Below are positions 101 through 23,698 of a stretch of 24,343 bases of DNA, piece by piece. The stretch's first letter is position 1, and the number at the start of each line of letters is the position of its first letter. The translations under genes were made by a program, and so were the position numbers. Source of the stretch: a virus. Below the pieces are notes generated by a model, which worked only from the letters and a program-made list of their open reading frames with translations, made no database searches and was not told where the DNA came from. The DNA is taken from the IMG/VR virus record IMGVR_UViG_3300020472_000161, positions 1 to 24,343 of that record. One strand, given 5' to 3'.

Positions 101-573
101 TGGCATTAGTTAGAAGTATGTTACAAAACGAATTGGGATCGCATTTTGCAAAAAACCCAGCAAGTGGAATACCACAGGGACAAAACATTGCAAAGGCATA
201 TAAGAATTATTTACAGAGTGCACAAAATACTGGAGGGTTTCCCTTTTCTACAGTTATGACTGAACCTTTTGGTATAAATATGGGTCAAATTTTTGAAGGA
301 AAACTACCTGCGGGTATGACTATTGGTCAGGCACTTGCAGCACAAATGACTAATATGGCATTAACATTTATGAGTGGACAACAAATAGGGCCACCCGTAA
401 CACCACCTTCACATTTACCCCAGTTAATGAACTTGTTTAATGCTTATGCGCCATCTCCTATGCAATTTGGTAGGGCGCTTGGTGGAATTATGGATGATTG
501 GACAAAAACTTGGGTTGTAAGCGGATTAATTCCCGGCACACCACCTGTACCTTTTTCGGGACCATTATCATAG
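100..573 (+). CDS. Unidentified structural-region protein, 157 aa
   Basis: I do not recognise this protein. It is 157 residues, has no signal peptide or clear membrane segment, and is rich in Gly, Pro and Met. The first third looks helical (LVRSMLQNELGSHFAKN, then NIAKAYKNYLQSAQ). The middle carries GQIFEGKLPAGMTIGQ and a hydrophobic helix around residues 80-95 (QALAAQMTNMALTFM). The end is proline-rich (GTPPVPFSGP). The ATG at 100 overlaps the upstream stop and no strong ribosome binding site precedes it, so it is probably translated by coupling. It sits at the head of four closely spaced unknown genes that lead into the baseplate wedge genes. A small tail or baseplate protein is likely from context only. 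Confidence 0.75.
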   Translation: MALVRSMLQNELGSHFAKNPASGIPQGQNIAKAYKNYLQSAQNTGGFPFSTVMTEPFGINMGQIFEGKLPAGMTIGQALAAQMTNMALTFMSGQQIGPPVTPPSHLPQLMNLFNAYAPSPMQFGRALGGIMDDWTKTWVVSGLIPGTPPVPFSGPLS

Positions 574-583
574 AGAAATAATT

Positions 584-3369: not shown

Positions 3370-3543
3370 ATGGCTAAAAAAGAATCTAAATGGGAACAAT
3401 CGGCCCCAACAAGAAATGATCTGAAGAATTTATTAGAGTCAACGAAAAAATTTGCTGAGATGTATTTAACTGTTCTTAATGAAAGACGGGATGTTTGGGT
3501 AGATCAATTAGAAAAACAGAAGAAGAAAGAGCAAGATGGCTGA
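3370..3543 (+). CDS. Small charged helical protein, 57 aa
   Basis: A reading frame of 57 residues fills what would otherwise be the only sizeable gap in this cassette. The product starts MAKKESKWEQSAPTRNDL and continues with leucine-spaced, highly charged helical sequence (LKNLLESTKKFAEMYLTVL) to a lysine- and glutamate-rich end (DQLEKQKKKEQDG). It is preceded by AAGGAG with ideal spacing and overlaps the next gene by eight bases (ATGGCTGA), so both ends fit a coupled operon. It has no cysteine, no signal peptide and no membrane segment. A short coiled coil is likely; such small proteins in tail clusters can be assembly factors or minor virion parts, but nothing here proves either. Confidence 0.75.
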   Translation: MAKKESKWEQSAPTRNDLKNLLESTKKFAEMYLTVLNERRDVWVDQLEKQKKKEQDG

Positions 3544-5548: not shown

Positions 5549-5941
5549 ATGGCCACAACAAACGGAAAAGATTATATTGATTTTGATATGGAGTTTACTC
5601 CACATCCTGCGCATGGTGATCTGGTACAAGTTAAAAAAAATAATGTTATTAGTCGATCAATTAAAAATATAATGAAAACTGCTGCATATGAGAGACTATT
5701 TCAACCAAACGTAACGGGTGGTGTATCTGACTTGTTATTTGAGAATTTCGGCCCGTTGACTGATGCCAGACTCGCTAAATCAATTCAATATTCTATTGAA
5801 CAATTCGAACCTAGGGCGATTGTAAAAAAAGTGAAAGTTATAAGACTAGAGGATGAAAATGCCTATCAGATTTATATTGAATATTTACCGGACAATAGTT
5901 CTGAAATTGAATCTACTGAAGTCTATTTGGAAAGGACATAG
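5549..5941 (+). CDS. gp25: Baseplate wedge protein gp25 (sheath initiator)
   Basis: This is a T4 gp25 / GPW_gp25-type protein of 130 residues; T4 gp25 has 132. In that family the protein sits at the inner end of the baseplate wedge, binds gp6 and gp53, and provides the template from which the contractile sheath polymerises. The sequence shows the characteristic order: a short beta N-terminus (DYIDFDMEFTPHP), SRSIKNIMKTAAYERLFQP, VSDLLFENFGPLTDARLAKS, and the conserved Glu-Pro-Arg motif at residues 87-89 (QFEPRAIVKKVKV), then a two-strand C-terminus. Translation starts at an ATG four bases after AGAGGA (5539-5544). Despite the old 'lysozyme-like' family label, no catalytic activity is expected. 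gp6 follows after six bases. Confidence 0.93.
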   Translation: MATTNGKDYIDFDMEFTPHPAHGDLVQVKKNNVISRSIKNIMKTAAYERLFQPNVTGGVSDLLFENFGPLTDARLAKSIQYSIEQFEPRAIVKKVKVIRLEDENAYQIYIEYLPDNSSEIESTEVYLERT

Positions 5942-5947
5942 AAGGAT

Positions 5948-7834
5948 ATGGCAAGCACAGAAGGAAAATTAAACATAGCCGAATTAGATTTCTCACAAAT
6001 TAAAGAAAATCTTATAGGCTTTTTACAGAATCAGTCCGAGTTTGTTGGTTATAATTTTAGGGGATCATCATTTGATGTTCTTCTCGATGTAATGGCATAT
6101 AATACACATTATAATGCATATTATGCTAACATGGTAGCAAATGAAATGTTTTTAGATTCAGCTTCACTTCGGAATTCCGTAGTTGCTAGAGCAAAACATT
6201 TAGGATACTTACCAAGGTCAGCAAAGGGTTCAAAGGCGGTAGTTGATCTTACTATTACACCAACTGGTGATCCGGCCGTTATAACTATTCCTAGATTTAC
6301 CCAATTTCAGGGTGATGTAGATGGTGTTAATTATATTTGGTGTACATCTAATTCACATTCTGTTAATATTAATGCAAATCTTGTTTATACTGTATCTGAT
6401 GTTGAATTGACACAGGGTATACCAATTTCTTATAAATACACGGCCGCCACGGCTGATGTTGACCAAAGATATCTTCTTCCTAATGCAAATATTGACACAG
6501 ATACCCTAACTGTAACAGTACAAACTTCTGAGACGGAATCCGCATCTTTTGCATATGATTTAGCAAATGATGTTACAACTGTTAATTCCACTTCTAAACA
6601 TTATTTTCTAGATGCTCAAGATGATGGGCTGTTTGAAGTACAATTTGGAGATGGGATATTAGGTAAAGAAATAGCAAATGGAAATATTATCACATTAGCG
6701 GGATTAGTAACAGATGCGGGTGCTACTAATGGATGTAAAACATTTTCTGTTGTGTCTGATGTTGGTGGTTATTCGAATGTTCAGATAATTACATCGGATC
6801 CGGCTGGAGGTGGAGTTGCACAGGCCGATATACAAGAAATTAAATTTAATGCACCTAAGAGCTTTGATGCACAGAATAGATGTGTTACAACTTATGATTA
6901 TGTGAGTCTAGTTAAAAGAGATTATCCTGAAGCACAGTCTGTAGTGGCATGGGGAGGAGAGGATAGTGATCCTCCAATTTATGGTAAGGTCTATGTAGCA
7001 ATTAAGCCTAGAATTGGAAATGTTTTATCTTTCGCTGCAAAAGCCAGAGTAGAAAAGGCAATTTTATCTAAAAGAAATGTTGTAGGCGTAACCTCCGTGG
7101 TTGTTGATCCAGATTATATATATTTAGGATTAGATACTACAGTAAAATACGATTCATCATTAACATCTAATAGTGAAGCCGTATTAAAACAAACTGTTAC
7201 ATCAACAATTAGAAATTTTGTTAATACTAATTTAAAAGATTTTGATTTGGCATTTAGATATTCGAATATAGTTCGATTAATAGATGAATGTGAAGTTTCT
7301 GTAAGAAGTAATCAGACAGCTGTTTCATTAAAAAGATATCTCTATCCTTTGATAGGGTCTACTGCTGCGTATTCCCTAAAATTTTCTAATGAGATATATC
7401 ATCCTTCTAATACATTCTGGGGTGCAATAACAAGTAGTAAATTTTCTTATAAAGACACAGCTAATACTGTCTGGCCAGATTGTAGATTTCAAGATGAAAA
7501 TGGATATGTTCAAGTATATAGAAAATTTGGATTAGAAAGAATTCTTGTTGCGAATAATATCGGAACTATAACTTATTCAACAGGAGTAATAAATCTTACT
7601 GGATTTTTACCTGAAGAAATAAACACTATAGCAGAAGGTAATACTGAGCCTATGACTGTTACTATTATTCCCGCCTCATCGGATATAAAACCAGTCCGTG
7701 AACAAATTTTATTACTAGAAGATAGCGATATTACTGTCACTATGTTAGATGATTCTCCATCCGGAACATATGTTTCTGGTGTACATAGTAAAGTAGATGG
7801 ATCAACCCTACGTACAGGATATGAGAAAGCGTAA
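5948..7834 (+). CDS. gp6: Baseplate wedge protein gp6 (baseplate J-like)
   Basis: A clear T4 gp6 homologue of 628 residues (T4 gp6 has 660). In T4, gp6 dimers form the ring that joins the six wedges around the hub. The N-terminal signature is intact: LDFSQIKENLIGFLQNQ, then VLLDVMAYNTHYNAYYANM at about 45-62 and RAKHLGYLPRSAKGS at about 81-95. The baseplate-J motif FGDGILGKEIANGNII appears at about 233-248, followed by VTTYDYVSLVKRDYPEAQSV. The C-terminal third is the gp6-specific beta-rich part. The ATG at 5948 has AAAGGA (5931-5936, inside the end of gp25) eleven bases upstream; a nearer AAGGA at 5942-5946 is too close to serve alone. The stop abuts the start of the gp7-like gene with no spacer. 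Confidence 0.93.
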   Translation: MASTEGKLNIAELDFSQIKENLIGFLQNQSEFVGYNFRGSSFDVLLDVMAYNTHYNAYYANMVANEMFLDSASLRNSVVARAKHLGYLPRSAKGSKAVVDLTITPTGDPAVITIPRFTQFQGDVDGVNYIWCTSNSHSVNINANLVYTVSDVELTQGIPISYKYTAATADVDQRYLLPNANIDTDTLTVTVQTSETESASFAYDLANDVTTVNSTSKHYFLDAQDDGLFEVQFGDGILGKEIANGNIITLAGLVTDAGATNGCKTFSVVSDVGGYSNVQIITSDPAGGGVAQADIQEIKFNAPKSFDAQNRCVTTYDYVSLVKRDYPEAQSVVAWGGEDSDPPIYGKVYVAIKPRIGNVLSFAAKARVEKAILSKRNVVGVTSVVVDPDYIYLGLDTTVKYDSSLTSNSEAVLKQTVTSTIRNFVNTNLKDFDLAFRYSNIVRLIDECEVSVRSNQTAVSLKRYLYPLIGSTAAYSLKFSNEIYHPSNTFWGAITSSKFSYKDTANTVWPDCRFQDENGYVQVYRKFGLERILVANNIGTITYSTGVINLTGFLPEEINTIAEGNTEPMTVTIIPASSDIKPVREQILLLEDSDITVTMLDDSPSGTYVSGVHSKVDGSTLRTGYEKA

Positions 7835-10800
7835 ATGGCCGATAAAATAAAAGAATCGAAGGATATCTCCGCATTAATAGAGACTCTTGTTCCTGAATTT
7901 GTAACTGCTGATTATCCGAAGATGAAAATCTTCATTGAGAAGTATTATGAATTCATGGAGTCCCATCAGGTTTATTTTGAAGGTATTGCGTTTAATGAAT
8001 ATAAACTAGTACAAGAGGGTGAGGATGATGCTTCACTGGAACCCGATTATTGGATTTTCGAAGATGAAATAAACAGTAAATTAATGCCTAATGGCGATCC
8101 TAATGAATTTTATGATGACCGTGTTCTAGACGGTGGTATTGTAAATCATAGAATACAACTTGAATCAGATCGTGATACCTCGAAAGATGATCAACTACAA
8201 TTTCAAATCGGTGAACTTGTTTATGGTAATACTACTGACGCAGAAGCGGTTGTTACTGGTATATCTGGTAATACTATTGCATGGATAAAACCCACCACAC
8301 AAACAAACTTTATATATGGAGAAGAACTTACAGGTGTATCTTCACGTGCTTGGACAACATTTGCAAATGGTGTTACGGCCGGAATATTTTCTGAAGGTTC
8401 TATAGAAGGTTTTCGTACAAGAGGGCCAATTGCGGCAACTAAAGAATTAAAAGCGTTTCAAGATATTGATACTACTGTAGAGGGATTGATTGACTCTTCT
8501 TGGAAAAAAGAATTTTATACTCATGTTCCAAAACAGGCAGAAACAGACAGAAGAAAATTACTAAAACAAATGAAAGAGGTTTATCGCTCAAAAGGTGGTG
8601 AGGCTTCTTACGATTGGTTATTCAGAGCGATTTTTGATTCTCAGGATATAGATTATTATTATCCTAAAAATGACATGATGAGGTTGTCCGATGGTAAATG
8701 GACAAAAGACAAAACAGTTAAAATTTTAACAGATACCGCAAATAATGCTCATTTATTTGAGGGTAAAGAAATTCGAGGACACACATCTAACGCCACTGCT
8801 ATAGTAGAACAAACAGTTACTAAAACTGTGGGTATGACTCAAATTACTGAATTATTTCTATCGAATATTATAGAAGGTACAGGTGGTGATGGTATTACAG
8901 GATTGTTTAGAAAGTATGAAGGTGTCGAAACTCCTCCTGATGCGAATAATCAAACCGCATTGGGTTTTTGTTCTGGTATTATTTCAGATGTTACTATTCA
9001 ATATGGAGGCAGTAATTATGAAATAGGAGATAGGATACAATTTGTTTCTGGAGGAGGAGCTGAAGCTAGAGGTGAAGTCACTGCCCTTGTAGATGATATT
9101 CTTAAAGGTTTTAGGATAACTGATGCTGGAGACGGATATTGTGTAGGAGATAAATTAGATTTTATTGATGGTGGCACAGGAGGAGAGGGTGCCGCAGCTA
9201 CTGTGGGAACTATTATTCCAACAGGAAAACTTTTAAAGAATAGTAATATAATTAAAGATGTTGAACAACTTGCAATTAATTCTAATAACGTTAATAAACC
9301 TTTATTTGCAAATTCATCACACACATTCACTGCAGAAATTAAAGATGAGTCTGGTGCCGTTTGGGATGCAGCAGGGGCGTTTTTTACTTCACAATTCTTC
9401 AATGTGGGTGATCTTATTAAAAGACAAAAAAGAATTGATAGTACAGAAGTCTATCCTGAGGGACCCGGTAAAGGAATCACCTTAACTCAATCCGGTACAA
9501 CTGTTACACTTTCTAGTGCACTTGAACATGATGAAGTTTTAGCCATCATCGGAGGAAAACTTACTTATGCAAATGGTAATAATACTATTATTGCAGCACA
9601 AGGAAATACAACTACACTTTATACTAAAGATGCACACACAATAGGTAGTGGACAGAATTTTAATATTTACTATGGAGATGAAGATCCTTGGGCACCTAGT
9701 GCAACAGTAGTTGCTGCTAATAGTGATATTCTTGTTTATACTCTTAATTCTGTCCATGTTGACGATTTAGGAAAACAAACAATAACAAATTTTTCTAATA
9801 ACGATACACTTATTCTATATGATACTTCAAAGGGTGTTTTAGGTGATCCATTAAATGCAAATAGTAGTGATGCTGCATTTACACATACAGGATTTGTTTT
9901 TGATGTAGGTAATACTCCTGAGAGTGTTTCTGGTTGGAGTGTTACTTTGGGTGATGCTTTTGCGATAGGAGGCGGATATCCTGTAAATCAAACAAATACA
10001 ACTTATAATGTATCTCCAATATTAACTTATACAGAACACGATTTTGGTTCTATTAACTCGTTAGCAATTACTGATGGTGGTTCTGGATATCAACGTTTGC
10101 CTATAATTACAGTAGCTAATACTTTTTTGACAAGTATAGGTAACTCAAGAGAACATACTGGTGATCCTAATTCTATACTTAATGTTAATTTACATTCTTA
10201 TTCTACTGGAACAATAACACAAATTGGCCAACAAGTAACATTAAGTGGTGGTTATTTTCCTACTGGTGCCATTACTACTGCAAATGGCGTTGGCTCATCC
10301 GAAAATAATTTATTACATATAACATATGCTAATGGTGTTCAAAACTATATCACAAATGTAAGTAGTAATACAATAGTTACTGTAGCTGATACACCTGATA
10401 GCGATATCTCTACCCCAGAAGCATACACACTTACATATATGGCAACCGCAAATACCTTCGCGGCCCATGATCTTATCTATAATGATGATTATTCTGCGAG
10501 AGCACGAGTATTAGATTTTATAGATGAACCTGCAGTAAATACATTTCCTAGATCGATAGGTAAATCTTATGAAGGATCTTATGTAGAGCGACCCGGTCAG
10601 ACCAACTATATGAGAAGAAATATACTTCATGGTAATACCTCTCTCAGAGTTGATATGTTATCTACCCAAGAGTTTTCTGGTGAACTTTCTTTTATATCTG
10701 CCGAGGGACCTCCTGATGCATATGGTGATCCACATAGAATAGTTTTTGAGGATCTTTCTGCAATTTTCCCAGAAGATTCTGTAACATTCATGCATACGGA

Positions 10801-13800
10801 AGATGGAGACATCATCATAGCAGAAGATGGTTCTTATATCTTTGCAGAAGATAATGGAAGTGACCGTATTACGGCATTTGATGGTTTGTCAACAATTACA
10901 TATAGTACCGGAACTATTACTCAATCTGGTAACGTTATTACAGCGGTAGATGGAACAACAATTTTTCCAAATGAGATACCTTATAGTACATTTTCTTATG
11001 CAAACAGTTTAACAACAACTGTAGTAGCACATACAAATTCCTCGTCAATTATAGTTGATAGTTCTAGAACTATATCTACAGCTGAAACATTTTCTATTAA
11101 TTATCACCCTGCTGCATATCATGGTGAGACTATTGGTATAACTGCTGTTTCACATCAAGCAAACCTAACGGTAACAGTAACGGAAACAGGACATACTAAA
11201 AATAATTCCGATAAAGTTAAAATAGAAGGATCAACTAATCTTATTTTTAATGGTATTTTTGATGTTTTACCCGTAGATTCTAATACGTATAATTATATGC
11301 TCGCAGAGGAGACATCATTACAACCTGCTGGAGCACTTACAACTAAACTTGTAAAAACTTCATATCTTGATACCGCTAATGCGGCAATGATTGATACTTC
11401 ATTGAAAGGTAATAATGCCGTTGTAGAAGTTTCTAGTGTTGCTGCTGGTTCAATTAAAGCTATAGACATTACAAATGTTGGCGCAGGATATTCATCTTCA
11501 CCTAGAGTTTTAGCAACTGATGGCGATAACAACGCACAAATTACAGCTGTTGTTGGAGCATTTGCACAATATCCCGGAAAATATAGAGGCACTCAAGGTC
11601 GATTAAATGATGCACCAAAAATTCAAGATAGTAGATATTATCAGAGTTTTTCTTATGTACTGAAAGCTCCTATTGATACTACAAAATATAGAGCACATGT
11701 GGATAGGTTGGTTCATCCCGCCGGAATGAAAATGTTCGGTGAATTAGCAATATATCTTAAAGCATCTGCTGAACTTTTTACATCAGGATTCCATGCCGGA
11801 TCGGGTAATAGGCAAGGACCCGGAAAACCTTCGGATGTGGATGATTATGATGATTCAGGATATGAACTTGGTCGTCCATTATATGAACAATTACATACAA
11901 GAAGATATCATCCTATTATAATAATTAATCAACCTCCAAATCTTCCTGCACAGATTACAACATATCGACAGCCTGAAATTGAGGTATATACACATGATAC
12001 TCCATATCATGCAATGGATGGTAGAATAGTACATAGAGGAAATGTAAATCTAATAAGAGAAGATTTTAGAGATGTTGAATCTATGGTACGTGCTTCAGGA
12101 ACACAGTTATCATTTATATTGAATGCTGTCGGAAGTAATAACGACCAATTTGAAGTTGGTGAGGAAGTATTTCAGGGAACATCATGGTTTACTAGAATTA
12201 GAAAAGCAGAAGTGGCCGGATACAATCATGCCACTTTAACGTTAACCCTTATTAATATGGATCCTGTAGGAGATTTCGATTTAAATATGGATATTCGTGG
12301 TTATATTTCAGGAGCCGAATATCCTATTCTTGAAGAAACCACAAGACCAATGGGTGATATTACAGAAATTGCTCATAGTATGGAAATAGGAGATGAAGTA
12401 CAGATTACAAGAGCGGATGGTGCAACAGCTGACTTTTGGAATGGTAGTTATATAATTCAAACCATCCCAGATGCTAATACATATCAAGTCTTTTTATCAA
12501 GATATGGTAAAGATGGAGATCCTTATGGTGATCCGGGAGAGGGTGCGCAAGCTACAGCACAAACAGCTTATGGTGGAGCTTATCTAAAAGTAGAAACAAA
12601 AGCAGTAGCAAATGTTTGGAGAATGAGTGCTCAGGATTATGGATCTCCATTTCATGGTGATATTCTTCATGAAGATGATGTAATAGATGGTGTAACATAT
12701 AATTGGAAGACATTATTAGAAGAGGGTGATACCTACTTGCTTCCAATGGTAGAATTTCCTGAAGCAGAATCAGGAACAGTTACGATTGATATGAGTTTTA
12801 GTAGTGATCTTATGTTAGAAGATCATATCAATCCCGATACAGGAAATCATGAAGATGGATATGTTCTAGCAGAAAATCATGGGACAATGGGAACAGGCCC
12901 ACAAAGATATATTTCTCTAGAAGATGATACAGAAGGAATACAATGGAGTCATGAGAGAGGACATCTTGGCCATGAGACTATGAGTATTCCTTATATGGAA
13001 ACAACTGAGGTTATTACTGTATATGAGAATTTCGGAGATAATTTAAGATTAGAGGATGGTTCACATTTTATAGAAGAAGGAGATGAAACATCTCGACCTC
13101 TATCGAGATTTATGATTGAAGGTAGTTTACCGGGACATCGTTCTACTGAAGCTGAACAAGTTCTAAGACCATTTGGTGAAATAGAATTTGTAAAGGATTG
13201 GACTGATCCTCTTACCGGAACAGAAGGCTCTTTATATGGTGGAAATAATGAAGTGAGTTCGGGCTGGGCTCCGGCCGCAGCTCTTGGAGTGGAAACGGGG
13301 CCATTTATATATGAAGATGGTACCGAGATGGGATTAGAGGAAGGTGGATCTTTACAAACATCACCTCCGGGTGAACCCGAAGAAGGAAGTTTGAGAGAAT
13401 ATGAGTTTAATCTTTATGAAAATGTTGGAGATAATTTAAGATTAGAGGATGATTCTCACATGATCGCTGAGGGTGATGAGACTACAAATGTATTGTCTAG
13501 ATTTATAATAAGTGACACAAGCGAGAAACATTTTAAAACTCCTGTTGGTGAAGTTGAATTTGATCTTTATCATTATGCTATGGGAGGATTAAGACTTGAA
13601 GATGGTTCTCATTTTATTGTAGAAGGTGATCCTACTACAGATTTAGCAAGATTCAGAACAGAAGATTTAACCCATAAGATTCCTGGCATTGGTGAGATTG
13701 AATTTCAGTTAGCAAATGCTAATACTCAACCCTCATTGAGTCAACATGAGGAACAAGTTGAAGTACACTTAGTAGCAGATCGTACTTATTTTAATTGGCA

Positions 13801-15277
13801 TATAGTAACAGAAGATGATAATCATATTATTAATGAGGTCATTACAGAACAATGGGATCAAGGAACGAAATTTGCGTTAGAAAATAATTATTTAAGTACA
13901 TTTCAATATCCCGGAACAGAACATGTAATAGATAAATCTGGAATTTATTCTGATAACCCAATGCGTGTTCACCAGTTATTACAATTTACAGGCCTAACAA
14001 TCGGCGGGCCTTGGATGTCTAGACAAATAGGATCTCAAACTTTTGGTTGTCAAGTTGGGCGTTGTCGAGGTTCTAGACAAAAATATCAAGATGGTGTAAA
14101 CCACACAGGCGACCCATTTTATCGTGGTGATTTAGGAAAATTTGGTGAGGATCGAACATTAGATGGTGATGCATATAGACAAAATTATGGTGAAGCTGGA
14201 AGTATAGTTTCTGGGCCAGGACTCAATATGAACCATCCGGGCCGTATTGGATTATTTAACCAATATTGGGAGTTAATGTCAATACATCATCCTATAATGC
14301 TTACGGGGCCGGCATGGTGGAAAAAATTTGAAATGACAACAACCACAATTACGAGTACACCCGTAATAACACATTGGAGTCCAACTGCTAATTCTCAAGT
14401 AGAACAATTTTTTTCAGAAGTTACAAATCGGAAACCGCCAGGAAGAAAAGTACAAGATGGATTTTTTGAACTTGAAGCACTTACTGATGTGGGTGGAGGT
14501 TATTTTGTTTTAGAAGAATTTCGTTCATCTAATGACGGTAGAACAGGAAGAATATTAACAGATTATGAGATATCAGTTAAGGGTGCTAGTACTTCTTCTA
14601 CCACATTTAATCAACCGACCGGACAAATTTCAATGGCCGCCGGAGGAACAACAGTAAATGGAACTGATACACTATTCCAATCTCAACTTTCTTCTGGTGA
14701 TATAATTCAGACTTTTTCTGAAAATGTTATTGTAGAAGATGATGAGGGTATAGTTATGGAATCTGATGAAAGAATAGAACATGAAGATGTTACTATTGAG
14801 GGATTAGTACAATATGCCGATTCCGGAGAGTTAGCATTTCATTGGAATACACCAATGGAAAGAATTCGTTGGTATATAGCTACAGAAGAGACTTACGGAC
14901 ATTGGGGTAATTATTATCCCGGCACAGGCTATGACCAAGAAACGAAAGAGGATACGCCGGGCTCTTATTATCTATGTGGAGAAGAGTCCATATATGAACA
15001 AGAGATTGGTTTAGAAATAAATACTCCACATGATTCATCAGGAGAAGCAAATAAAGTAATTGCATCGGAGTCTACGTGGGAACAACAGAATTTACTCTTA
15101 GAAGATGGATGGAAATTATTATTAACAAATCAAGCAGAATTTAGGGTTGAATCAGTTACAAATGATACAACAGCTACAGTAACACGGGGCAGTATCGATG
15201 GTACCGGATCCGTGCCGTTTTGGAGACAATCAACTGAAATAGAACGCTCAGCTTCCATTTCAGGTTTACATTATTAA
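7835..15277 (+). CDS. gp7: Giant gp7-like baseplate wedge protein, 2480 aa
   Basis: It occupies the gp7 slot between gp6 and gp8. T4 gp7 (1032 residues) is the wedge backbone to which gp6, gp8, gp10 and gp53 attach. Two stretches recall the C-terminal half of T4 gp7: residues 10-50 plus 215-280 (IFIEKYYEFMES; then EVYRSKGGEASYDWLFRAIF) and residues 1268-1312 (YYQSFSYVL ... VDRLVHPAGMKMFGELAIYL). Between them lie about 1000 residues of small beta modules, including glycine-tyrosine hairpins near 380-460, 740-765 and 1206-1240. After residue 1312 comes an acidic extension of about 1170 residues with LEDG repeats, Trp-rich segments and a Cys/His-containing patch near 2071-2165. No frameshift is visible; the frame is open throughout. 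The start abuts the gp6 stop. The gp7 name is an inference from position and these blocks, made from memory rather than by alignment. Confidence 0.75.
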   Translation: MADKIKESKDISALIETLVPEFVTADYPKMKIFIEKYYEFMESHQVYFEGIAFNEYKLVQEGEDDASLEPDYWIFEDEINSKLMPNGDPNEFYDDRVLDGGIVNHRIQLESDRDTSKDDQLQFQIGELVYGNTTDAEAVVTGISGNTIAWIKPTTQTNFIYGEELTGVSSRAWTTFANGVTAGIFSEGSIEGFRTRGPIAATKELKAFQDIDTTVEGLIDSSWKKEFYTHVPKQAETDRRKLLKQMKEVYRSKGGEASYDWLFRAIFDSQDIDYYYPKNDMMRLSDGKWTKDKTVKILTDTANNAHLFEGKEIRGHTSNATAIVEQTVTKTVGMTQITELFLSNIIEGTGGDGITGLFRKYEGVETPPDANNQTALGFCSGIISDVTIQYGGSNYEIGDRIQFVSGGGAEARGEVTALVDDILKGFRITDAGDGYCVGDKLDFIDGGTGGEGAAATVGTIIPTGKLLKNSNIIKDVEQLAINSNNVNKPLFANSSHTFTAEIKDESGAVWDAAGAFFTSQFFNVGDLIKRQKRIDSTEVYPEGPGKGITLTQSGTTVTLSSALEHDEVLAIIGGKLTYANGNNTIIAAQGNTTTLYTKDAHTIGSGQNFNIYYGDEDPWAPSATVVAANSDILVYTLNSVHVDDLGKQTITNFSNNDTLILYDTSKGVLGDPLNANSSDAAFTHTGFVFDVGNTPESVSGWSVTLGDAFAIGGGYPVNQTNTTYNVSPILTYTEHDFGSINSLAITDGGSGYQRLPIITVANTFLTSIGNSREHTGDPNSILNVNLHSYSTGTITQIGQQVTLSGGYFPTGAITTANGVGSSENNLLHITYANGVQNYITNVSSNTIVTVADTPDSDISTPEAYTLTYMATANTFAAHDLIYNDDYSARARVLDFIDEPAVNTFPRSIGKSYEGSYVERPGQTNYMRRNILHGNTSLRVDMLSTQEFSGELSFISAEGPPDAYGDPHRIVFEDLSAIFPEDSVTFMHTEDGDIIIAEDGSYIFAEDNGSDRITAFDGLSTITYSTGTITQSGNVITAVDGTTIFPNEIPYSTFSYANSLTTTVVAHTNSSSIIVDSSRTISTAETFSINYHPAAYHGETIGITAVSHQANLTVTVTETGHTKNNSDKVKIEGSTNLIFNGIFDVLPVDSNTYNYMLAEETSLQPAGALTTKLVKTSYLDTANAAMIDTSLKGNNAVVEVSSVAAGSIKAIDITNVGAGYSSSPRVLATDGDNNAQITAVVGAFAQYPGKYRGTQGRLNDAPKIQDSRYYQSFSYVLKAPIDTTKYRAHVDRLVHPAGMKMFGELAIYLKASAELFTSGFHAGSGNRQGPGKPSDVDDYDDSGYELGRPLYEQLHTRRYHPIIIINQPPNLPAQITTYRQPEIEVYTHDTPYHAMDGRIVHRGNVNLIREDFRDVESMVRASGTQLSFILNAVGSNNDQFEVGEEVFQGTSWFTRIRKAEVAGYNHATLTLTLINMDPVGDFDLNMDIRGYISGAEYPILEETTRPMGDITEIAHSMEIGDEVQITRADGATADFWNGSYIIQTIPDANTYQVFLSRYGKDGDPYGDPGEGAQATAQTAYGGAYLKVETKAVANVWRMSAQDYGSPFHGDILHEDDVIDGVTYNWKTLLEEGDTYLLPMVEFPEAESGTVTIDMSFSSDLMLEDHINPDTGNHEDGYVLAENHGTMGTGPQRYISLEDDTEGIQWSHERGHLGHETMSIPYMETTEVITVYENFGDNLRLEDGSHFIEEGDETSRPLSRFMIEGSLPGHRSTEAEQVLRPFGEIEFVKDWTDPLTGTEGSLYGGNNEVSSGWAPAAALGVETGPFIYEDGTEMGLEEGGSLQTSPPGEPEEGSLREYEFNLYENVGDNLRLEDDSHMIAEGDETTNVLSRFIISDTSEKHFKTPVGEVEFDLYHYAMGGLRLEDGSHFIVEGDPTTDLARFRTEDLTHKIPGIGEIEFQLANANTQPSLSQHEEQVEVHLVADRTYFNWHIVTEDDNHIINEVITEQWDQGTKFALENNYLSTFQYPGTEHVIDKSGIYSDNPMRVHQLLQFTGLTIGGPWMSRQIGSQTFGCQVGRCRGSRQKYQDGVNHTGDPFYRGDLGKFGEDRTLDGDAYRQNYGEAGSIVSGPGLNMNHPGRIGLFNQYWELMSIHHPIMLTGPAWWKKFEMTTTTITSTPVITHWSPTANSQVEQFFSEVTNRKPPGRKVQDGFFELEALTDVGGGYFVLEEFRSSNDGRTGRILTDYEISVKGASTSSTTFNQPTGQISMAAGGTTVNGTDTLFQSQLSSGDIIQTFSENVIVEDDEGIVMESDERIEHEDVTIEGLVQYADSGELAFHWNTPMERIRWYIATEETYGHWGNYYPGTGYDQETKEDTPGSYYLCGEESIYEQEIGLEINTPHDSSGEANKVIASESTWEQQNLLLEDGWKLLLTNQAEFRVESVTNDTTATVTRGSIDGTGSVPFWRQSTEIERSASISGLHY
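8977..9214 (+). repeat. Tandem pair of glycine-tyrosine beta modules in the gp7-like gene
   Basis: Two consecutive protein-level copies of one short module are encoded here: VTIQYGGSNYEIGDRIQFVS followed by a Gly/Ala-rich turn, then FRITDAGDGYCVGDKLDFID followed by another Gly/Ala-rich turn. The pattern is a hydrophobic strand, a G-x-x-Y turn, a second strand, then a small-residue loop. Single copies recur further on in this gene and in gp8 and the DUF4815-type gene. DNA identity between the two copies is low, so the duplication is old. Confidence 0.65.
13022..13710 (+). repeat. Three LEDG repeats in the gp7-like gene
   Basis: Three protein repeats of about 50 residues start at Tyr1730, Tyr1861 and Tyr1912. 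Each reads roughly Y-x5-(N/G)-LRLED-(G/D)-SH-(F/M)-I-x-EGD-x-T, then a short arginine-phenylalanine step (LSRF, LSRF, LARF), and closes with G-E-(I/V)-E-F. Copies two and three are directly adjacent; copy one is separated by about 75 residues that contain a looser version (YEDGTEMGLEEGG). Copies one and two share an identical 25-base DNA stretch at 13034-13058 and 13427-13451, which suggests fairly recent duplication or gene conversion. Related acidic 'EDG' hairpins are scattered outside this block. Confidence 0.8.
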
Positions 15278-15346: not shown

Positions 15347-16996
15347 ATGCCTGCTATAGTAACCAATAAATTTAGGATTCATAATGCAAAACAGTTTGTA
15401 GAGGCATTTGATGAAGTCGCAGCTACATCCGGTGATGCAATCGTGGATTCTAGTGGGTTATTGACTACCAACATGTATCTTTTCATTGGTAAGGTAACCC
15501 CATGGACAGACGACACACAACCCCCTACTCCTACAGATTCAGTATCTAATACTGTCTACAATCATTGGAGAGATATGATTGCAGCCAAGAGGATCGGGCC
15601 AGCTGATGTTAGTCACGTTGTACCTCGTTATAACTGGACATCAGGACAAAACTACTTTGCATATACACACGCAAATAATACATTATTTGATCAGACATTT
15701 TATGTCATGAACGAAGATTATAATGTATATAAGTGTCTTGCAAATAATAACGCCGGAGGAACTTCTACTACTGTACCTTCCGGAACAGGAACTTCTTTTA
15801 TCACCACGGGTGATGCATACAAATGGAAGTTCATGTATCAAATTTCAGCAGCAAGAGCTCTTAAGTTTGTAACACCTAGTTACATGCCCGTACAGAGAGT
15901 ACGTAAAGCTAACCTTGCGATTGCTAATACTACAGATTCTTCAATGCAGTATGATGTTGAGATCGCAGCAAATACTTCAGGTAATGGTGCGATTGAAATA
16001 GCACATGTAACTAATGGAGGAACCGCCTATAAATTTGAAACTGGAGCAGTTCAGTCAGGATATGTAGAAACTGGAACCACAGCTAAAATTGTCGGTACTG
16101 GTTTAGCAACTGATGATCTAGTTGATAGCGATATCTTCTTTACTTCAGATAGTGGTAGTGGAGTAACAGGAAAAGGCGGAAGAATTACCGCATACGATGC
16201 TACTACTCAAGTTGTAACTTGGACACCTGCACTTTCTGGTGCATCAGTTCCAGCAGATGCTGATGGTTATTCTATCGGGCCAGCTGTTACCATTACGGGT
16301 GACGGACATGGTGCGAATGTTAGAACAACTAATACTGTATCTGGAGTTATTGGTGATGTAGTTGTAGTTGCTGGAGGTAACAATTATGGTAACGCAGTTG
16401 CTACAATTTCCTCAAATGGTGGTTCATCGGGAGCCATTTCACCAATTATCGGGCCACGTGGCGGACACGGAGATGATGCGACAGAAGAACTCGGTGGATT
16501 TTTCGTAATGGTCAATAGCCGATTAGAATATGGTGAATCAGGAAACTTTACTACAAACAACGATTTTCGTAAGATCGGACTTTTGGCACAACCTAATTAT
16601 GCCAATGGTGATGTTGCTACTGCAACAATAGTTGACCAAGCAGTAACATTCACTATTCAAACTTGGAATAGTACAGCATTTGCTGAAGATGAGTTGGTAA
16701 CCGGAGGACAATCTGGTGCGACTGGTAGAGTCATTGACTTTAAGAGTAATACAACTATTCGATTAGCTGATGTTACAATGGGTGGTAATACTACCGCAGG
16801 ATTTGATGGTATTACTGGATCATTCCAAGCAAATGAAACAATTACGGCACCAAGTGGAGCTCAGGCAAATACTTCAGCCATTACAGGCGGAGATTTAGAA
16901 AAATTCTCTGGCGATGTTCTTTACATAGAAAATCGTTCACCTGTTACAAGAGCTGATGACCAAATCGAAGATGTGAAATTGATAATTGAATTCTAG
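15347..16996 (+). CDS. gp8: Baseplate wedge protein gp8, enlarged form, 549 aa
   Basis: A T4 gp8-type protein; in T4, gp8 dimers (334 residues each) bind gp7 and gp10 in the outer wedge. The N-terminus matches the family: AIVTNKFRIHNAKQF, YLFIGKVTPW at about 45-54, PTDSV, a Trp-x3-Met step (HWRDMIAAKRI), DVSHVVPRYNW at about 86-96, then YKCLANNN and DAYKWKFMYQIS at about 163-174. The C-terminus LYIENRSPVTRADDQIEDVK is also typical. The extra length, about 215 residues over T4, lies between these ends and consists of beta modules: a Gly-Tyr hairpin (VVVVAGGNNYGNAVATIS) and two GE-type units (FAEDELVTGGQSGATGRV; FQANETITAPSGAQAN). It has its own late promoter and strong ribosome binding site. 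Confidence 0.9.
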   Translation: MPAIVTNKFRIHNAKQFVEAFDEVAATSGDAIVDSSGLLTTNMYLFIGKVTPWTDDTQPPTPTDSVSNTVYNHWRDMIAAKRIGPADVSHVVPRYNWTSGQNYFAYTHANNTLFDQTFYVMNEDYNVYKCLANNNAGGTSTTVPSGTGTSFITTGDAYKWKFMYQISAARALKFVTPSYMPVQRVRKANLAIANTTDSSMQYDVEIAANTSGNGAIEIAHVTNGGTAYKFETGAVQSGYVETGTTAKIVGTGLATDDLVDSDIFFTSDSGSGVTGKGGRITAYDATTQVVTWTPALSGASVPADADGYSIGPAVTITGDGHGANVRTTNTVSGVIGDVVVVAGGNNYGNAVATISSNGGSSGAISPIIGPRGGHGDDATEELGGFFVMVNSRLEYGESGNFTTNNDFRKIGLLAQPNYANGDVATATIVDQAVTFTIQTWNSTAFAEDELVTGGQSGATGRVIDFKSNTTIRLADVTMGGNTTAGFDGITGSFQANETITAPSGAQANTSAITGGDLEKFSGDVLYIENRSPVTRADDQIEDVKLIIEF

Positions 16997-17041: not shown

Positions 17042-20000
17042 ATGCCATTATCTACTAATTTTAATGTTACGCCGTATTATGATGATTTTGATGAATCTAA
17101 AGGTTATTATCGTATACTTTTTAAGCCGGGTTATGGAATTCAGGCAAGAGAGCTTACTCAATTACAAACTGCATTGCAAAATCAGATTGATAAGATAGGC
17201 TCTCACAATTTCAAAAATGGTGAAAAGGTATTAGGCGGTGATATTACTTTAGATACAGATGTTCATTCTCTACAGTTAGAGATGCAATATCTTGGCGAAA
17301 ATATCAATGCAGCCTCCTTTGTAGGAAAGACCGTTGTAGGTGTAACTTCAAATGCTAGAGCGAGAGTTGTAGCATCACAAGCACCTACAAGTCTTTTACA
17401 ACCCATTCTAATGTTTCATTATATGGGTGGTGATACCTTTGCTGACGGTGAAATTGTTCAAAACGAAGTAGTTCCTCCCACGGATCCTGATACTTTCGCG
17501 ACAACTATTAGTTTAGATGGACCCTCTGCGATGGCTAATGCCGTTGCAAACGGTTCTGTTGTTAGTATGGATACTGGTATTTACTTTATTGATGGTCATT
17601 TTGTTCTTTGTCCTGCAAATACTTTAATACTCGACACGGCCAATACTGCGCCTTCTGGTAGAATTGGCCTTGAAATAACAGAAACAATCAAAACAAGTGA
17701 TGATGACAATTCTTTATTGGATCCGGCTGACGGAACCTTTAACTATGCCGCACCCGGTGCAACTAGACTTGATATTGCATTATCCTTAGTAAAAAAAGAA
17801 ATTAATGTTACTGACCCAATCTCACAAGTAGCAGACCCAAATTTTATACACCTATTGAAAATTATAGATGGTGTGAAACATGAAAATGTTAAATACCCTG
17901 TATATAATGCAATAGAAAAAACACTTACTAAAAAATCACATCAAAAATCAGGAGACTTTACAACTACTCCTTTTGATTTAAAATTATCCGCACATAGAGG
18001 TATATCCGGAACAACAGCAAACTCTGGATTAGATGGAACAACTCTATATGGAAATAATACACGTTTTACTACAGAGTTGAGTATTGGCGATAAAATATAT
18101 TTAGGATCCAATGTTACGGCAGCTGAAGTAAGTACAATAGCAAATAATTCAAGATTAACAGTTACTTCTACACTTTCTTCTGCGACCGAAGGATTAACAA
18201 TCTATAATGAATCAGAAATACAAGCAGGCTTAAGTTCTGGTAAAGCAGAGATTGATGGTTATGAATATGAAAGTGTTTCTACTGAATATCTTGATATTGA
18301 TAAAGGGCGTGGTACAGCCACAGACGCCGGTTATAGTATGGGAGTTGAAGTTGGTAACTATGTTATAATTGATAATATGAATAAATTTCTTGATGTGGGA
18401 ACACATGAGATTGTTCATTTACATGCAGCTAAAGTAGCAGATATTAATGTTACAACAAATGCAGAATATTTAGCAACACAAACAGGAACCGCGAGAATTC
18501 GTGGTCTAAAATGGGATTCTTCTTCTGGAAATACTTCAGCCCCTGATACCAACCATTCAAATTATCGAGCATATCTTTATGATATCGATACTTCAAATTC
18601 TGTAGCAGGTACGGTTGGCGCAGCGATTGCAAATACAACCCATGTAAAATTATTCACCGATGATACTTCTTTTGTAAATACTACTTATGTTGGTGCAACT
18701 ATTACTGTGAATACTGTTAATGGTGTTGATTCTACTAGTGATATCAGATTAATAGACGAATATATTTCAAATACTACAGGACATTGGGCTACTGTTAATA
18801 CAGCGATTTCACAAGCAACTATTGCAAATAGTACATATGAAATTTCATTTACTATAGGTGATACTAAATCGTTGACTGTTGCAGATTATTCAATTACCTT
18901 ACCGGGTGCATCTGCAACCATAAATTCTTATGCTGATATTTCTGCAACTGGCAAAACAAATGATAGTGATTCTGGTAGATGTATATTAAAAGATACAGAT
19001 TCGGGTTCTTTAGTTTACCCTTTACCACAGAGTCCCGTTAAAGCAACAGTAATAACGGCCAATACAGTAAATTATCAGTTTAAGTTAGTTGAATCAAATC
19101 TCACTTCTGATGCAGCCGGTAAATTAACTGTAACATTAGCAAATCCAAATTATGAGTTTTTACCCAAATCAGGAACACTAAATTCCACAGAAGCGCGTGA
19201 GGGTTATATTGTAGTTGTTAAAGAGGCGGATGCCGGAGGTGCAACTACAGCACAAACATTTGTTAATGCTGTTTCTGCAGGAAGTTCTCTTCCAAATGCT
19301 TCAGCTTCGATAGCAAGAGATTTGTTGGATGGTGATTGGTTAGATTTGGGTGCTACAGATGATGCGGGAACAAGTATTCGACCCGTTGTTATAAGTTCTG
19401 ATTTACATACAGCTGAAATACATTGTAATACTTCTTCTGCTTTTACTGCTGATATTATATATTGTGCTTCAAGTTCAACAACAAGAAAAGAGCCGGGGCC
19501 CAGGACAAAAACTCTAGTGGGTGGTAATGGTTCACATATTGGTGCATTTGCCGGAGGAAATCCTACAAATCATTTAGCTAGTGGCCAGTTTTATTTTACA
19601 GATCCTAATATAACACAAACTTCTACAGATGAATTATTAGTTTCTGATGGTTTTAATCTAGTAAAAGTTGTTGATTCTGGAGTAGAATCTGTTCCTGTAT
19701 CAAATGCAATGATGACCGCTACCGCGAATGATATCACTCACATGTATGAATTTGATACCGGCCAACGAGATAATTTTTATGATCATTCAAGAATTAAATT
19801 AAAGCCCGGATATTCTGGTCCCGCAGGACAAATTATGGTTGTCATTGACTACTTTATTTGGGACGGCGCTGTTGGATATCATTCTGTTGATTCTTATCCT
19901 ACAGCGGGATCATGGAATCAGAAAGATACAACAAGTACTAAAGTATTCGATTATTCTTCAATACCCGAATTCGAAAGTTCTACGGATGGTAAAACATATA

Positions 20001-23000
20001 AATTACGAGACTGTATAGATTTACGGCCTCGAAGAGAAAATGAATCTAATGATTTTAAAGCGAATACTGCTGCATTAGAAGCAATACCTACTCCTTTACC
20101 AAATGGTGTTCTTCTTGCTGATGTTCAGTATTATCTCCCAAGGGTAGATAAAATTTCATTAACTAAAGATCGCAAATTTAAAATTATAAAGGGTACTCCT
20201 TCATTAAATCCTGTGCCACCACCGGATAATCCAGATTCAATGACATTATACACATTGAACATACCCGCATATACATTTAGTCTTAATGATATTATTACAA
20301 GATATGTAGATAATAAACCATTCTCTATGCGTGACATTGGCAAGCTAGAAAAAAGAATTGAAAGATTGGAATATTATACTTCATTATCATTATTAGAAAA
20401 AGAAACAGCCGCAAGGAATTTTACACGTAATAGTGCAAAAAATACTACATTTAACATTAAAGGTAATGCATTTAAAAATGGTATATTAATAGATTCATAT
20501 AGTGGCCACTCTGTTGGAGATGTTTTAAGTAGTGACCATAACATCTCAGTAGAATATGCAAAGAAAGAAATGCGACCCGGTTTTTATTCAGATAATTACA
20601 AATTTACTTATGATGTGTCATATAGTAATAACGTAATAAAAACTGGTGATTTGGTTACTCTACCATATACTGATGTTGACTTTGTACAACAACCTATGTC
20701 TAGTAATACAGTAGTAGCAAATCCTTTTAATATTATTAACTTTGTTGGAAATTTAAAAACATGGCCTTCCTCTGATGTATGGTATGATCAAAACACTCGA
20801 CCTACTATTATAACAAACTTAGAGGGTCAACATGATAACTGGAAATTAAGTGAAACTAATGGTTTCGGTTCTCAATATAATGATTGGGAAACGAATTGGG
20901 CCGGTACTGAAATAACAGAACCTGCGGTATTAGGAATAGAGTCTAAAGGAAAGACTTATGAAGAGAAGAGAACAACAACAGAAGTAAATGATTCTAAAAC
21001 ACGACTCGGAATACTTCCTACACCTCCAGATGCTATTCTCAAAACTGTAGGAAAGAAAGTTGTTGATACTACTGTTGTTCCTTTTATCAATAGTCAACAT
21101 GTTCAATTTATGGCAAAAGGATTACGACCTCTTACCAATGTATATTCCTTTTTCGGATCAACTAATGTTGGAGATATTACACGTCCTGCAACAATATTAA
21201 CTCTTGGTAGTGTAGACGGCACATTTCAAATAGGCGAAACACTTACTGATGCAGCAAATAATCAATGTACAGTTTTGATGACAACTAATGTTATTTCTAA
21301 TGTTGCGACTGTTTTAATTTCTAATATAACTGGTAATGCCACATCTACTTCCGCCTCTCCTTATGGAGCAGCAAATGGTATAACTGTTGGAACAAGAGAA
21401 CATTTTCCAGATACAGTAGGGAATGCAACTTACGTATTTGCATCAGGTAATACTATTACCGGTGGTTCAAGTGCGGCTACTGCATCTATTACTCTTGCAA
21501 CAAAATATTCTGTCGGCACCGCTAATGGTATTATGAGGACAGATAAAAATGGACAAATCGCCGGAGAAATTCTTATATCAGATGGTACTTTCCGTACTGG
21601 TGACAATCTTCTTAGAATTACTGATAGTAGTTTAGATAATGTTGCAGCAACTGTTGCAGTAGCCGAAACTAAATGGTCAGCTAAGGGTGTATTAGATTCT
21701 CATTCAGCAGAATATGTGTCTACTAGAGAAATAATTAATCGTAGAGAAATACCAGATGAAGAAAGATTATTTTCAGATACTACTGTTAGAGAAACAGAAA
21801 AGACTAATTGGTTGAATCCTATAGCACAAACATTTTATGTAGATGGTAGTAATTTTCCAAAAGGACTATTTCTAAGAAGTGTAGATTTGTATTTTGTAGA
21901 AAAGGACATATATCTACCGATAACAGTACAACTACGTCCTGTTGTTAATGGATTTCCTAGTACTTCAAAAGTAATTCCATTTAGTGAAGTGACATTAAAT
22001 CCTGATTCTGTTGTTACTAATGCGATAGCAAATTCAGCTTCAACTTCAAGTTATACAAGATTCACTTTTGAATCTCCAGTATTCTTACCTCCAAATGAAT
22101 ATGCACTTGTAGTTAATACTAATAGTACAGATTATAAACTGCATATAGCTGAAGAGGGATATATTGCAATAGGAACGGATGCCACGAAGATTTCTAAACC
22201 CACTTACATTGGTACACTTTATAGACCCCAAAATGCGGGATGGTGGGGAACGAATCTAGATGAATATTTAACATTTAGAATGAAGAGAGCTGAGTTTTCA
22301 ATAGGACAAGGTGGATCAAATAACTTTGCAAAAATGGTTGTTCATTGTAATGGCGCATATGGTAATACAGCAAATGTTGATGTTGATGAATTTAATGTTA
22401 GTACTTCTTCATTGGATTTTAGTGATACTGAGACGGTTTGGAAATACGTTGCTTCCAATAATTCATATTCTATGGATGACACAAAAGAGGGAACGGCGGT
22501 ATATACAGAACTTTCTACTAATCAGAATTATAAATTAAAAGATCGAAAGAGAATGATTGCAACTTCTAATGGAACATTTAGATTGCGAGCAGAAATGACT
22601 TCTGCAAATTCACATGTTTCACCTGTGATTGATCTTGATCGATTAAATATGACCACCGTTAAAAATATAGTTGATAATGGAGAGTTATCTGATTCAGATA
22701 TAACAGTAATGGTTAGAGGATCAGGTTATGAAAATGTAGAACCACAATTTGTAACTGCTACATTAGCTGGCGGTGGAACAGATAACGTAGCCACATTAAA
22801 TGTTCATGTTTCTGTAACAATGAATTGTAATTCAAACTCAACAACAATATCTAGTGGAAATAGTGCATATACTGTAGATGGAAGTAATCCCGGACAGTTT
22901 ATTGTTGGCGAAGCTGTGATGGCAAATACCGCAGCTGATGTTAATGCGAATAATAGTGGTATATATGGAGTTATTGATTCAGTAACATATGTCGATGGTG

Positions 23001-23698
23001 ATCCTTTGAATAACGTTGCTACCGTTACTATTAAGACAAGCTCGAATAACCAAGGTATGCTTGCAAATGGTAAGTTAATTTGGGCGAATCCAAATGCACA
23101 GACAAATGCAGCAACTGGATTAGAGTCATCTTGTAGTAATACTAAGATGCAAGTATTAATAGCAAATGGTTATGTTTCAAATGTTGTAGTAGTTGATACA
23201 GGAACAGGATATACGAAAAATCCAACAGTTACTATTACAGGAATGCCAGCTGTTACAGGATCTATTAATGCCGCAGTACAATGTACTGGAGAGGAACGTA
23301 ATAGTGGTGGCCCAATAACTTCTAAGTATATTTCTAGAAGAGTAACACTTAAAGAGGGATTTGATGCCTCAGATATGAAAGTTGTACTAAGTGCTTATAA
23401 GCCAAAAGGTACAGATATTCATGTATATTATAAAGTACATTCTGAAGCTGATCCTGAAGAATTTGATTTGAAAAATTATACATTAATGTCTCAAGAAACC
23501 AGTGCCGGAACATTTTCTAGAGGAGAGGATGATTTTCAAGAGTTTGTTTATAAAACAGTAAATGAAACAACAGAATATTCTTCAAGTGGAGCCTTGTATG
23601 ACTCATTCAAAACCTTCTCAGTTAAGATATCAATGGTTGCTAATACAAGTTATGATATGCCAAGAGTAAAAGATTTAAGGGCTATAGCGTTGGATTAA
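17042..23698 (+). CDS. DUF4815-type giant baseplate/tail protein, 2218 aa
   Basis: It matches the large virion proteins with a DUF4815 domain found next to gp8 in marine T4-like phages. Family marks are the N-terminus (STNFNVTPYYDDFDES, LFKPGYGIQARELTQLQTAL), DYFIWDGAVGYHSVDSYP at about 935-952, LRDCIDLRPRRENES at about 988, a helical LEKRIERLEYYTSLSLLEKE at about 1101-1120, QHVQFMAKGLRPLTNVYSFF at about 1352-1371, NPIAQTFYVDG near 1592 with a following beta domain, and the C-terminal PRVKDLRAIALD. Between residues about 310 and 930, and again near 1375-1560 and 1900-2075, are inserted beta modules resembling those in gp7-like and gp8. The exact role is uncertain: the position after gp8 corresponds to T4 gp9/gp10, so a part that connects tail fibres to the wedge is plausible. 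The start has AGGAA at 17029-17033, eight bases upstream. Confidence 0.85.
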   Translation: MPLSTNFNVTPYYDDFDESKGYYRILFKPGYGIQARELTQLQTALQNQIDKIGSHNFKNGEKVLGGDITLDTDVHSLQLEMQYLGENINAASFVGKTVVGVTSNARARVVASQAPTSLLQPILMFHYMGGDTFADGEIVQNEVVPPTDPDTFATTISLDGPSAMANAVANGSVVSMDTGIYFIDGHFVLCPANTLILDTANTAPSGRIGLEITETIKTSDDDNSLLDPADGTFNYAAPGATRLDIALSLVKKEINVTDPISQVADPNFIHLLKIIDGVKHENVKYPVYNAIEKTLTKKSHQKSGDFTTTPFDLKLSAHRGISGTTANSGLDGTTLYGNNTRFTTELSIGDKIYLGSNVTAAEVSTIANNSRLTVTSTLSSATEGLTIYNESEIQAGLSSGKAEIDGYEYESVSTEYLDIDKGRGTATDAGYSMGVEVGNYVIIDNMNKFLDVGTHEIVHLHAAKVADINVTTNAEYLATQTGTARIRGLKWDSSSGNTSAPDTNHSNYRAYLYDIDTSNSVAGTVGAAIANTTHVKLFTDDTSFVNTTYVGATITVNTVNGVDSTSDIRLIDEYISNTTGHWATVNTAISQATIANSTYEISFTIGDTKSLTVADYSITLPGASATINSYADISATGKTNDSDSGRCILKDTDSGSLVYPLPQSPVKATVITANTVNYQFKLVESNLTSDAAGKLTVTLANPNYEFLPKSGTLNSTEAREGYIVVVKEADAGGATTAQTFVNAVSAGSSLPNASASIARDLLDGDWLDLGATDDAGTSIRPVVISSDLHTAEIHCNTSSAFTADIIYCASSSTTRKEPGPRTKTLVGGNGSHIGAFAGGNPTNHLASGQFYFTDPNITQTSTDELLVSDGFNLVKVVDSGVESVPVSNAMMTATANDITHMYEFDTGQRDNFYDHSRIKLKPGYSGPAGQIMVVIDYFIWDGAVGYHSVDSYPTAGSWNQKDTTSTKVFDYSSIPEFESSTDGKTYKLRDCIDLRPRRENESNDFKANTAALEAIPTPLPNGVLLADVQYYLPRVDKISLTKDRKFKIIKGTPSLNPVPPPDNPDSMTLYTLNIPAYTFSLNDIITRYVDNKPFSMRDIGKLEKRIERLEYYTSLSLLEKETAARNFTRNSAKNTTFNIKGNAFKNGILIDSYSGHSVGDVLSSDHNISVEYAKKEMRPGFYSDNYKFTYDVSYSNNVIKTGDLVTLPYTDVDFVQQPMSSNTVVANPFNIINFVGNLKTWPSSDVWYDQNTRPTIITNLEGQHDNWKLSETNGFGSQYNDWETNWAGTEITEPAVLGIESKGKTYEEKRTTTEVNDSKTRLGILPTPPDAILKTVGKKVVDTTVVPFINSQHVQFMAKGLRPLTNVYSFFGSTNVGDITRPATILTLGSVDGTFQIGETLTDAANNQCTVLMTTNVISNVATVLISNITGNATSTSASPYGAANGITVGTREHFPDTVGNATYVFASGNTITGGSSAATASITLATKYSVGTANGIMRTDKNGQIAGEILISDGTFRTGDNLLRITDSSLDNVAATVAVAETKWSAKGVLDSHSAEYVSTREIINRREIPDEERLFSDTTVRETEKTNWLNPIAQTFYVDGSNFPKGLFLRSVDLYFVEKDIYLPITVQLRPVVNGFPSTSKVIPFSEVTLNPDSVVTNAIANSASTSSYTRFTFESPVFLPPNEYALVVNTNSTDYKLHIAEEGYIAIGTDATKISKPTYIGTLYRPQNAGWWGTNLDEYLTFRMKRAEFSIGQGGSNNFAKMVVHCNGAYGNTANVDVDEFNVSTSSLDFSDTETVWKYVASNNSYSMDDTKEGTAVYTELSTNQNYKLKDRKRMIATSNGTFRLRAEMTSANSHVSPVIDLDRLNMTTVKNIVDNGELSDSDITVMVRGSGYENVEPQFVTATLAGGGTDNVATLNVHVSVTMNCNSNSTTISSGNSAYTVDGSNPGQFIVGEAVMANTAADVNANNSGIYGVIDSVTYVDGDPLNNVATVTIKTSSNNQGMLANGKLIWANPNAQTNAATGLESSCSNTKMQVLIANGYVSNVVVVDTGTGYTKNPTVTITGMPAVTGSINAAVQCTGEERNSGGPITSKYISRRVTLKEGFDASDMKVVLSAYKPKGTDIHVYYKVHSEADPEEFDLKNYTLMSQETSAGTFSRGEDDFQEFVYKTVNETTEYSSSGALYDSFKTFSVKISMVANTSYDMPRVKDLRAIALD

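Follow-up and report, generated by a model that had tools for sequence, protein, structure and literature searches.

A much enlarged protein next to gp6 in a T4-like phage is almost certainly an orthologue of the baseplate scaffold protein gp7

Among the closest systems, XM1 gp17 (242 aa) and A-1(L) gp32 are described as proteins that pair with two gp6-like chains in the wedge and in addition carry spikes or a fibre (PMC10457771, PMC10966104). XM1 gp17 binds 12 spikes via its loop 80-106 and its C-terminus (PMC10457771), and the C-terminal loop of A-1(L) gp32 helps to anchor the long tail fibre (PMC10966104). We found no baseplate structure for marine cyanophages or pelagiphages of the type studied here. 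In pelagimyophages and cyanomyophages gp7 was reported to be absent, with VrlC in its place (PMC7029224). Earlier, cyanophage gp7 had been listed at 4-7% identity to DLP6 (PMC5349666), figures that large length differences would depress. Proteins of this kind have also been detected in virions: the proteome of S-CREM2 contains a 1937-aa slot protein with 91 peptides (PMC10665884), and S-SZBM1 virions contain a 6619-aa 'baseplate wedge initiator' (S-SZBM1_208) with 71 peptides, which we know from the paper alone (PMC9146016).

We analysed a stretch of 24,343 bases (the window), which is the complete virus record IMGVR_UViG_3300020472_000161 and represents a fragment of the tail cluster of a T4-like phage (Kyanoviridae/pelagimyophage-type, contractile). 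The genes follow one another on the + strand in the order 157-aa, 927-aa and 661-aa proteins, gp25, gp6, a 2480-aa protein, gp8, a DUF4815 protein and the first part of a fibre-like protein. The genes that concern us here were the following:

5549..5941, + strand: gp25 (sheath initiator / wedge), PF04965 over cut-off
5948..7834, + strand: gp6 (wedge), phrog_219 at E 7e-163, profile match to T4 gp6
7835..15277, + strand: gp7-type baseplate wedge protein, 2480 aa, open, with ATG start
15347..16996, + strand: gp8 (wedge), PF09215 and phrog_438
17042..23698, + strand: DUF4815 / 'VrlC' protein, 2218 aa, PF16075, not gp7 and without similarity to it

The coordinates 7835-15277 and the length of 2480 residues given in the preliminary description are exact. 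The reading frame directly abuts gp6 upstream, and gp8 is the next gene downstream. It is not an assembly fusion, because full-length relatives on independent contigs keep its length (2000-2852 aa). We observed gp6 immediately upstream of the gp7-slot gene in 153 of the 155 informative loci. Core columns matched one locus each in the records of 12 relatives (the complete HTVC008M, S-SSM4, DLP6 and T4 included), the other matches being at the level of modules; the window itself is a 24 kb fragment. In the sampled loci gp25 has about 125-167 aa and full-length gp6 about 590-698 aa, which bears out the earlier statement that both kept their normal size, and the gp7 slot spans 461-6932 aa. The 157-, 927- and 661-aa proteins (window 100-573, 584-3367 and 3536-5521) form a conserved block between gp5 and gp25, with gp5 seen at its upstream side in the relative L011; Pfam and PHROG scans assigned them to no family, noise excepted. 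For the DUF4815/VrlC protein, the structure of one relative is solved, namely 9euf (ORF65, 1152 aa, E 8e-28).

Three core segments, A, B and C, could be traced with core models through the whole family. In the window protein they are arranged as follows:

7856..7966, + strand: core segment A, residues 8-44, helices at the N-terminus (core model iE 2e-12)
7967..8437, + strand: insertion AB, residues 45-201, 157 aa (core models)
8438..8713, + strand: core segment B, residues 202-293, YRSKGGEASYDWLFRAIF helices (iE 5e-28; T4 gp7 about 690-760)
8714..11569, + strand: insertion BC, residues 294-1245, 952 aa, where T4 gp7 has domain V (core models, Pfam borders)
11570..11755, + strand: core segment C, residues 1246-1307, RLVHPAGMKMFG motif (iE 2e-24; T4 gp7 about 865-892)
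11756..15274, + strand: C-terminal extension, residues 1308-2480, 1173 aa, where T4 gp7 has domain VI (core models)
12995..14554, + strand: fast-diverging stretch, residues 1721-2240 (divergence from the closest relative)

Two gp7-like blocks had been proposed before, at residues 215-280 and 1268-1312, about 1000 residues apart and followed by another 1170. Both are real and coincide with segments B and C, with 952 residues between them and 1173 after, and the core is split by large insertions as had been claimed. Segment A is the counterpart of the helical domain of T4 gp7 (643-689 by its Pfam border), and the helices in the model of a compact relative align to T4 638 onward. In many compact relatives A and B are 3-5 aa apart, compared with 157 aa here. 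About 2,280 extra residues are thus placed at three points, namely in the insertions AB and BC and in the C-terminal extension. Since the Pfam borders of T4 gp7 (helical 643-689, domain V 766-861, domain VI 920-1012) coincide with these points, the additions fall on junctions between T4 domains. Homology to T4 gp7 extends over only about 190-260 residues (T4 about 640-895). Segment A is preceded by 7 residues, and the N-terminal ~640 residues of T4 gp7 have no counterpart. Therefore the earlier figure of 2.4 times the length of T4 gp7 is numerically right but compares different additions, because the common core has about 190 residues and the N-terminal part of T4 gp7 is missing in the window protein.

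We compared profiles of this family with gp7 of the T4 group. Twenty compact viral relatives aligned by hhalign to seven Straboviridae gp7s with 98% probability (E 8e-14) over T4 636-824, and the HMM of the compact relatives covers residues 7-1313 of the window protein (iE 2e-119). With the profile of the window clade alone, the best two non-overlapping matches to T4-group gp7 were 243-274 to T4 728-758 (P 0.0013) and 1276-1307 to T4 866-894 (P 0.0023), each P being for a single comparison; they are collinear, as expected for the two blocks if the protein is gp7. The window protein scored 36.6 bits for Pfam PF23786 Baseplate_wedge, above the curated cut-off of 27. A profile search of 177,635 PDB sequences returned only two gp7s below 0.2 (E 1.1e-9 and 2.6e-5); a profile was required, as phmmer of the window protein alone found no match in the PDB. 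There was no match of the window protein to phrog_964, the Straboviridae-type gp7.

Among 1107 non-slot ORFs, the model of segment B found Straboviridae gp7s only (E about 1e-8; next best 0.12), and the best shuffled gp7 gave 0.02. Taken by itself, segment C matches T4 only weakly (E about 0.005, like the best of 2000 shuffles), and its assignment is carried by order and spacing. The N-terminal core helices (T4 643-689) lie inside the hhalign alignment, and the short segment A model alone matched one Straboviridae gp7 weakly. Most of the length of the slot protein is beta-rich sequence without a family, as would be the case for a tail-fibre-like protein that resembles gp7 by chance. This explanation is hardly credible given the clean specificity control, the synteny with gp6 and the control pairs, which reached 0.1-0.5% probability (compact profile against T4 gp6, gp8, gp10 and gp11; gp6, gp8 and VrlC families against gp7).

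For the fold we used an AF2 model of a compact relative (597 aa, mean pLDDT 70), not of the window protein. The top three Foldseek matches of this model were all gp7 (2.2e-7, 6.5e-7 and 1.4e-4). VIA-align gave Z 11.2 to T4 gp7 638-896 over 241 residues and 11.1 and 8.8 to two other gp7 chains; next came a baseplate chain of phage P1 (7.3), and unrelated chains scored 6.5 or less. The predicted core of the compact relative thus has a fold like that of T4 gp7. As a whole the model deviates strongly from T4 gp7 (global rmsd about 19 A), so the domains are placed differently. Elongation-factor beta barrels also appeared in this search (Z 5-6.5), and we took them as common beta arrangements.

We are therefore close to certain that the 2480-aa protein is a much enlarged orthologue of the T4 baseplate scaffold protein gp7, as the preliminary description had suggested. 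The published view holds that gp7 is absent and that VrlC replaces it; the slot would then be filled by an unrelated structural protein. This view is stated in PMC7029224, and gp7-slot proteins are often annotated 'structural' or 'hypothetical'. We consider it very improbable, as profiles, the PDB search and the fold all tie the slot protein to gp7, and the VrlC family profile against gp7 gave a probability of 0.1. This last comparison led us to reject VrlC as a substitute for gp7. It is hence almost beyond doubt that gp7 is present in these phages, contrary to PMC7029224.

Size alone does not set the window protein apart. Same-slot homologues span 284-7312 aa, so at 2480 aa it is a mid-sized member. 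Among 136 complete same-slot proteins (461-6932 aa, one of them a Straboviridae gp7 that the model also found), the A-B distance is 1-626 residues, the B-C distance 84-2816 and the C-terminal part 15-3302. The three lengths vary independently (S-CREM2, BC 1623 and C-terminal 14; L064, BC 164 and C-terminal 1597). All three segments are present even in short proteins of Ackermannviridae S117 (orf167, 284 aa) and Vibrio D495 (335 aa). The longest, PSSM4_080 of P-SSM4 (7312 aa), is already annotated gp7 'baseplate wedge initiator'. Others are those of S-SSM4 (6932 aa), S-RIM2 (6378 aa, from annotated coordinates), ACG-2014f (4225 aa), S-RSM4 (3515 aa), S-PM2d081 (3048 aa) and HTVC008M (1016 aa). 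For the 1937-aa slot protein of S-CREM2 we confirmed the homology by sequence. The window gp7 is thus not exceptional, as its orthologues reach 7312 aa, and proteins of this family are already in GenBank and in virion proteomes.

Some labels in the family differ. The entry phrog_3465 and some records name it 'head closure Hc2' (noticed at L002:8995-12045 and L214:7685-8539), apparently a mislabel, because the match of S117 orf167 to Pfam Baseplate_wedge runs from end to end of the protein. In S-SSM4 the gene after the giant gp7 (L003:28133-29905) contains sequence common to the gp7-slot PHROGs phrog_2885 and phrog_701, which suggests that neighbouring structural genes may exchange modules.

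The inserted sequence gave few matches. PHROG scans of each insert returned a single weak one (phrog_9998, E 4e-4, unknown function). The BC insertion contains a 38-aa beta unit in four copies (381-417, 423-458, 738-763 and 1205-1238). Four units are the family median, so amplification of this unit does not explain the size of the window protein and was rejected as its cause. Other material makes up the greater part of the added sequence, and the expansion is not simply one by whole beta modules, as had been proposed earlier. The remaining BC sequence is conserved in the clade, and all close members have 922-952 residues between B and C.

The C-terminal extension had no match in 50,697 phage records, and a search of viral contigs found chiefly loci of the same clade; as far as sequence comparison can tell, it has no detectable relatives outside its own clade. 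A self-similarity comparison detected only three short repeats of GDNLRLEDGSHFIEEGDET-type (GDNLRLEDGSHFI-type) in it, at 1728-1773, 1858-1906 and 1912-1944. A common phage beta module (GTDTLFQSQLSSGDIIQTF ... FRVESVTNDTTATVTR) at residues 2276-2451 (window 14660-15187) looks split by about 135 inserted residues, so that one insertion may be nested within the C-terminal arm. The DUF4815 protein has a similar module, unsplit, near residue 340.

By homology, segments A, B and C would come together as the gp7 core, which most likely joins two gp6 chains in the inner ring; each of the six wedges would contain one 2480-aa chain, bound to gp25 and these two gp6 chains. The three stretches of added sequence would form peripheral arms. 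In line with this, the insertion points fall on T4 domain junctions, the lengths of AB, BC and the C-terminal part vary independently, and the clade conserves the core and diverges fastest at residues 1721-2240. By analogy with XM1 and A-1(L), the arms most likely serve to anchor fibres, spikes or outer wedge proteins and to relay a host-contact signal to the inner ring. As a whole, a gp7 orthologue with its core in the wedge and the added sequence as peripheral arms is a highly probable explanation. The baseplate may have the very large periphery that was proposed earlier. That the arms are docking or scaffold elements for fibres or outer wedge proteins may be given an even chance; we favour it because the binding sites of XM1 and A-1(L), an internal loop and the C-terminus, resemble the enlarged sites here, a likeness of position without residue-by-residue alignment. 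This reading overlaps with two others, in which the arms bind the receptor directly or replace peripheral proteins.

In the first of these the gp7 core is right and the arms are adhesins, with host-binding domains at the end of the C-terminal extension that touch the receptor. Residues 1721-2240 diverge much faster than the rest of the protein (63-74% to the nearest relative compared with 81-98% elsewhere), the extension varies in length within the clade (736-1591 aa), and S-PM2d081, a gp7-slot protein, had a non-synonymous mutation among the early changes of an evolution experiment (PMC9910659). Fast divergence, however, also fits co-variation with a docked fibre, and neither PHROG nor Pfam found a carbohydrate-binding or other adhesin domain in the window protein. 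The AF2 model of residues 1290-2480 is uninformative (pLDDT 35, moderate confidence at about 1411-1575 only). We regard adhesin arms as a rather doubtful alternative.

It is unlikely that the arms take over the peripheral wedge roles of T4 (gp10, gp11, gp12-type), which these phages may lack, so that one chain would make a second baseplate layer. The order of genes after gp8 is unlike that of T4, and the DUF4815 protein has no similarity to T4 gp7 or gp10 by profile comparison, but it has solved relatives and may fill that role itself. Less likely still is a chain that is wedge and adhesin at once, with a ~190-residue core and 2-7 thousand residues of arms which both recognize the host and replace the peripheral wedge proteins of T4.

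In summary, an enlarged gp7 is of a kind already known in ocean phages, and the useful point is the correction of PMC7029224: abundant ocean T4-like phages do have gp7. Proteins labelled structural, hypothetical, head closure Hc2 or wedge initiator are unified as one gp7 family, and a simple rule emerges in which one wedge protein varies 25-fold (284-7312 aa) around a fixed core, with gp6 and gp25 unchanged. Under the docking reading, the enlarged sites show where fibres of such marine cyanophages and pelagiphages may be attached.

Compared with the known systems, XM1 gp17 and A-1(L) gp32 are very small, a comparison made through the papers and not by sequence. S117 orf167 (PF23786) contains all three segments, and no more than about 12 aa separate B from C; it is a near-minimal core, expanded between A and B only, unlike the window protein. 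In T4 gp7 (1032 aa, PDB 5IV5) the core is collinear (about 638-896), but ~640 residues are added N-terminally, where the window protein has no addition (7 aa); its own additions are the 157 aa of AB, the 952 aa of BC and the 1173 aa after C. An N-terminal expansion like that of T4 is seen outside Straboviridae in the 881-aa homologue of Agrobacterium phage OLIVR5 (L213:9771-12416), with about 270 residues before segment A. The best match in the phage database, gp055 of Pelagibacter phage HTVC008M (annotated head closure Hc2), has the same slot and the same core at under half the length. The giant cyanophage gp7s (P-SSM4, ACG-2014f, S-SSM4, S-PM2d081) are longer than the window protein, which has its own C-terminal extension without a relative in the phage collection; they share with it the slot after gp6 where checked, the A-B-C order and the same three expansion points.
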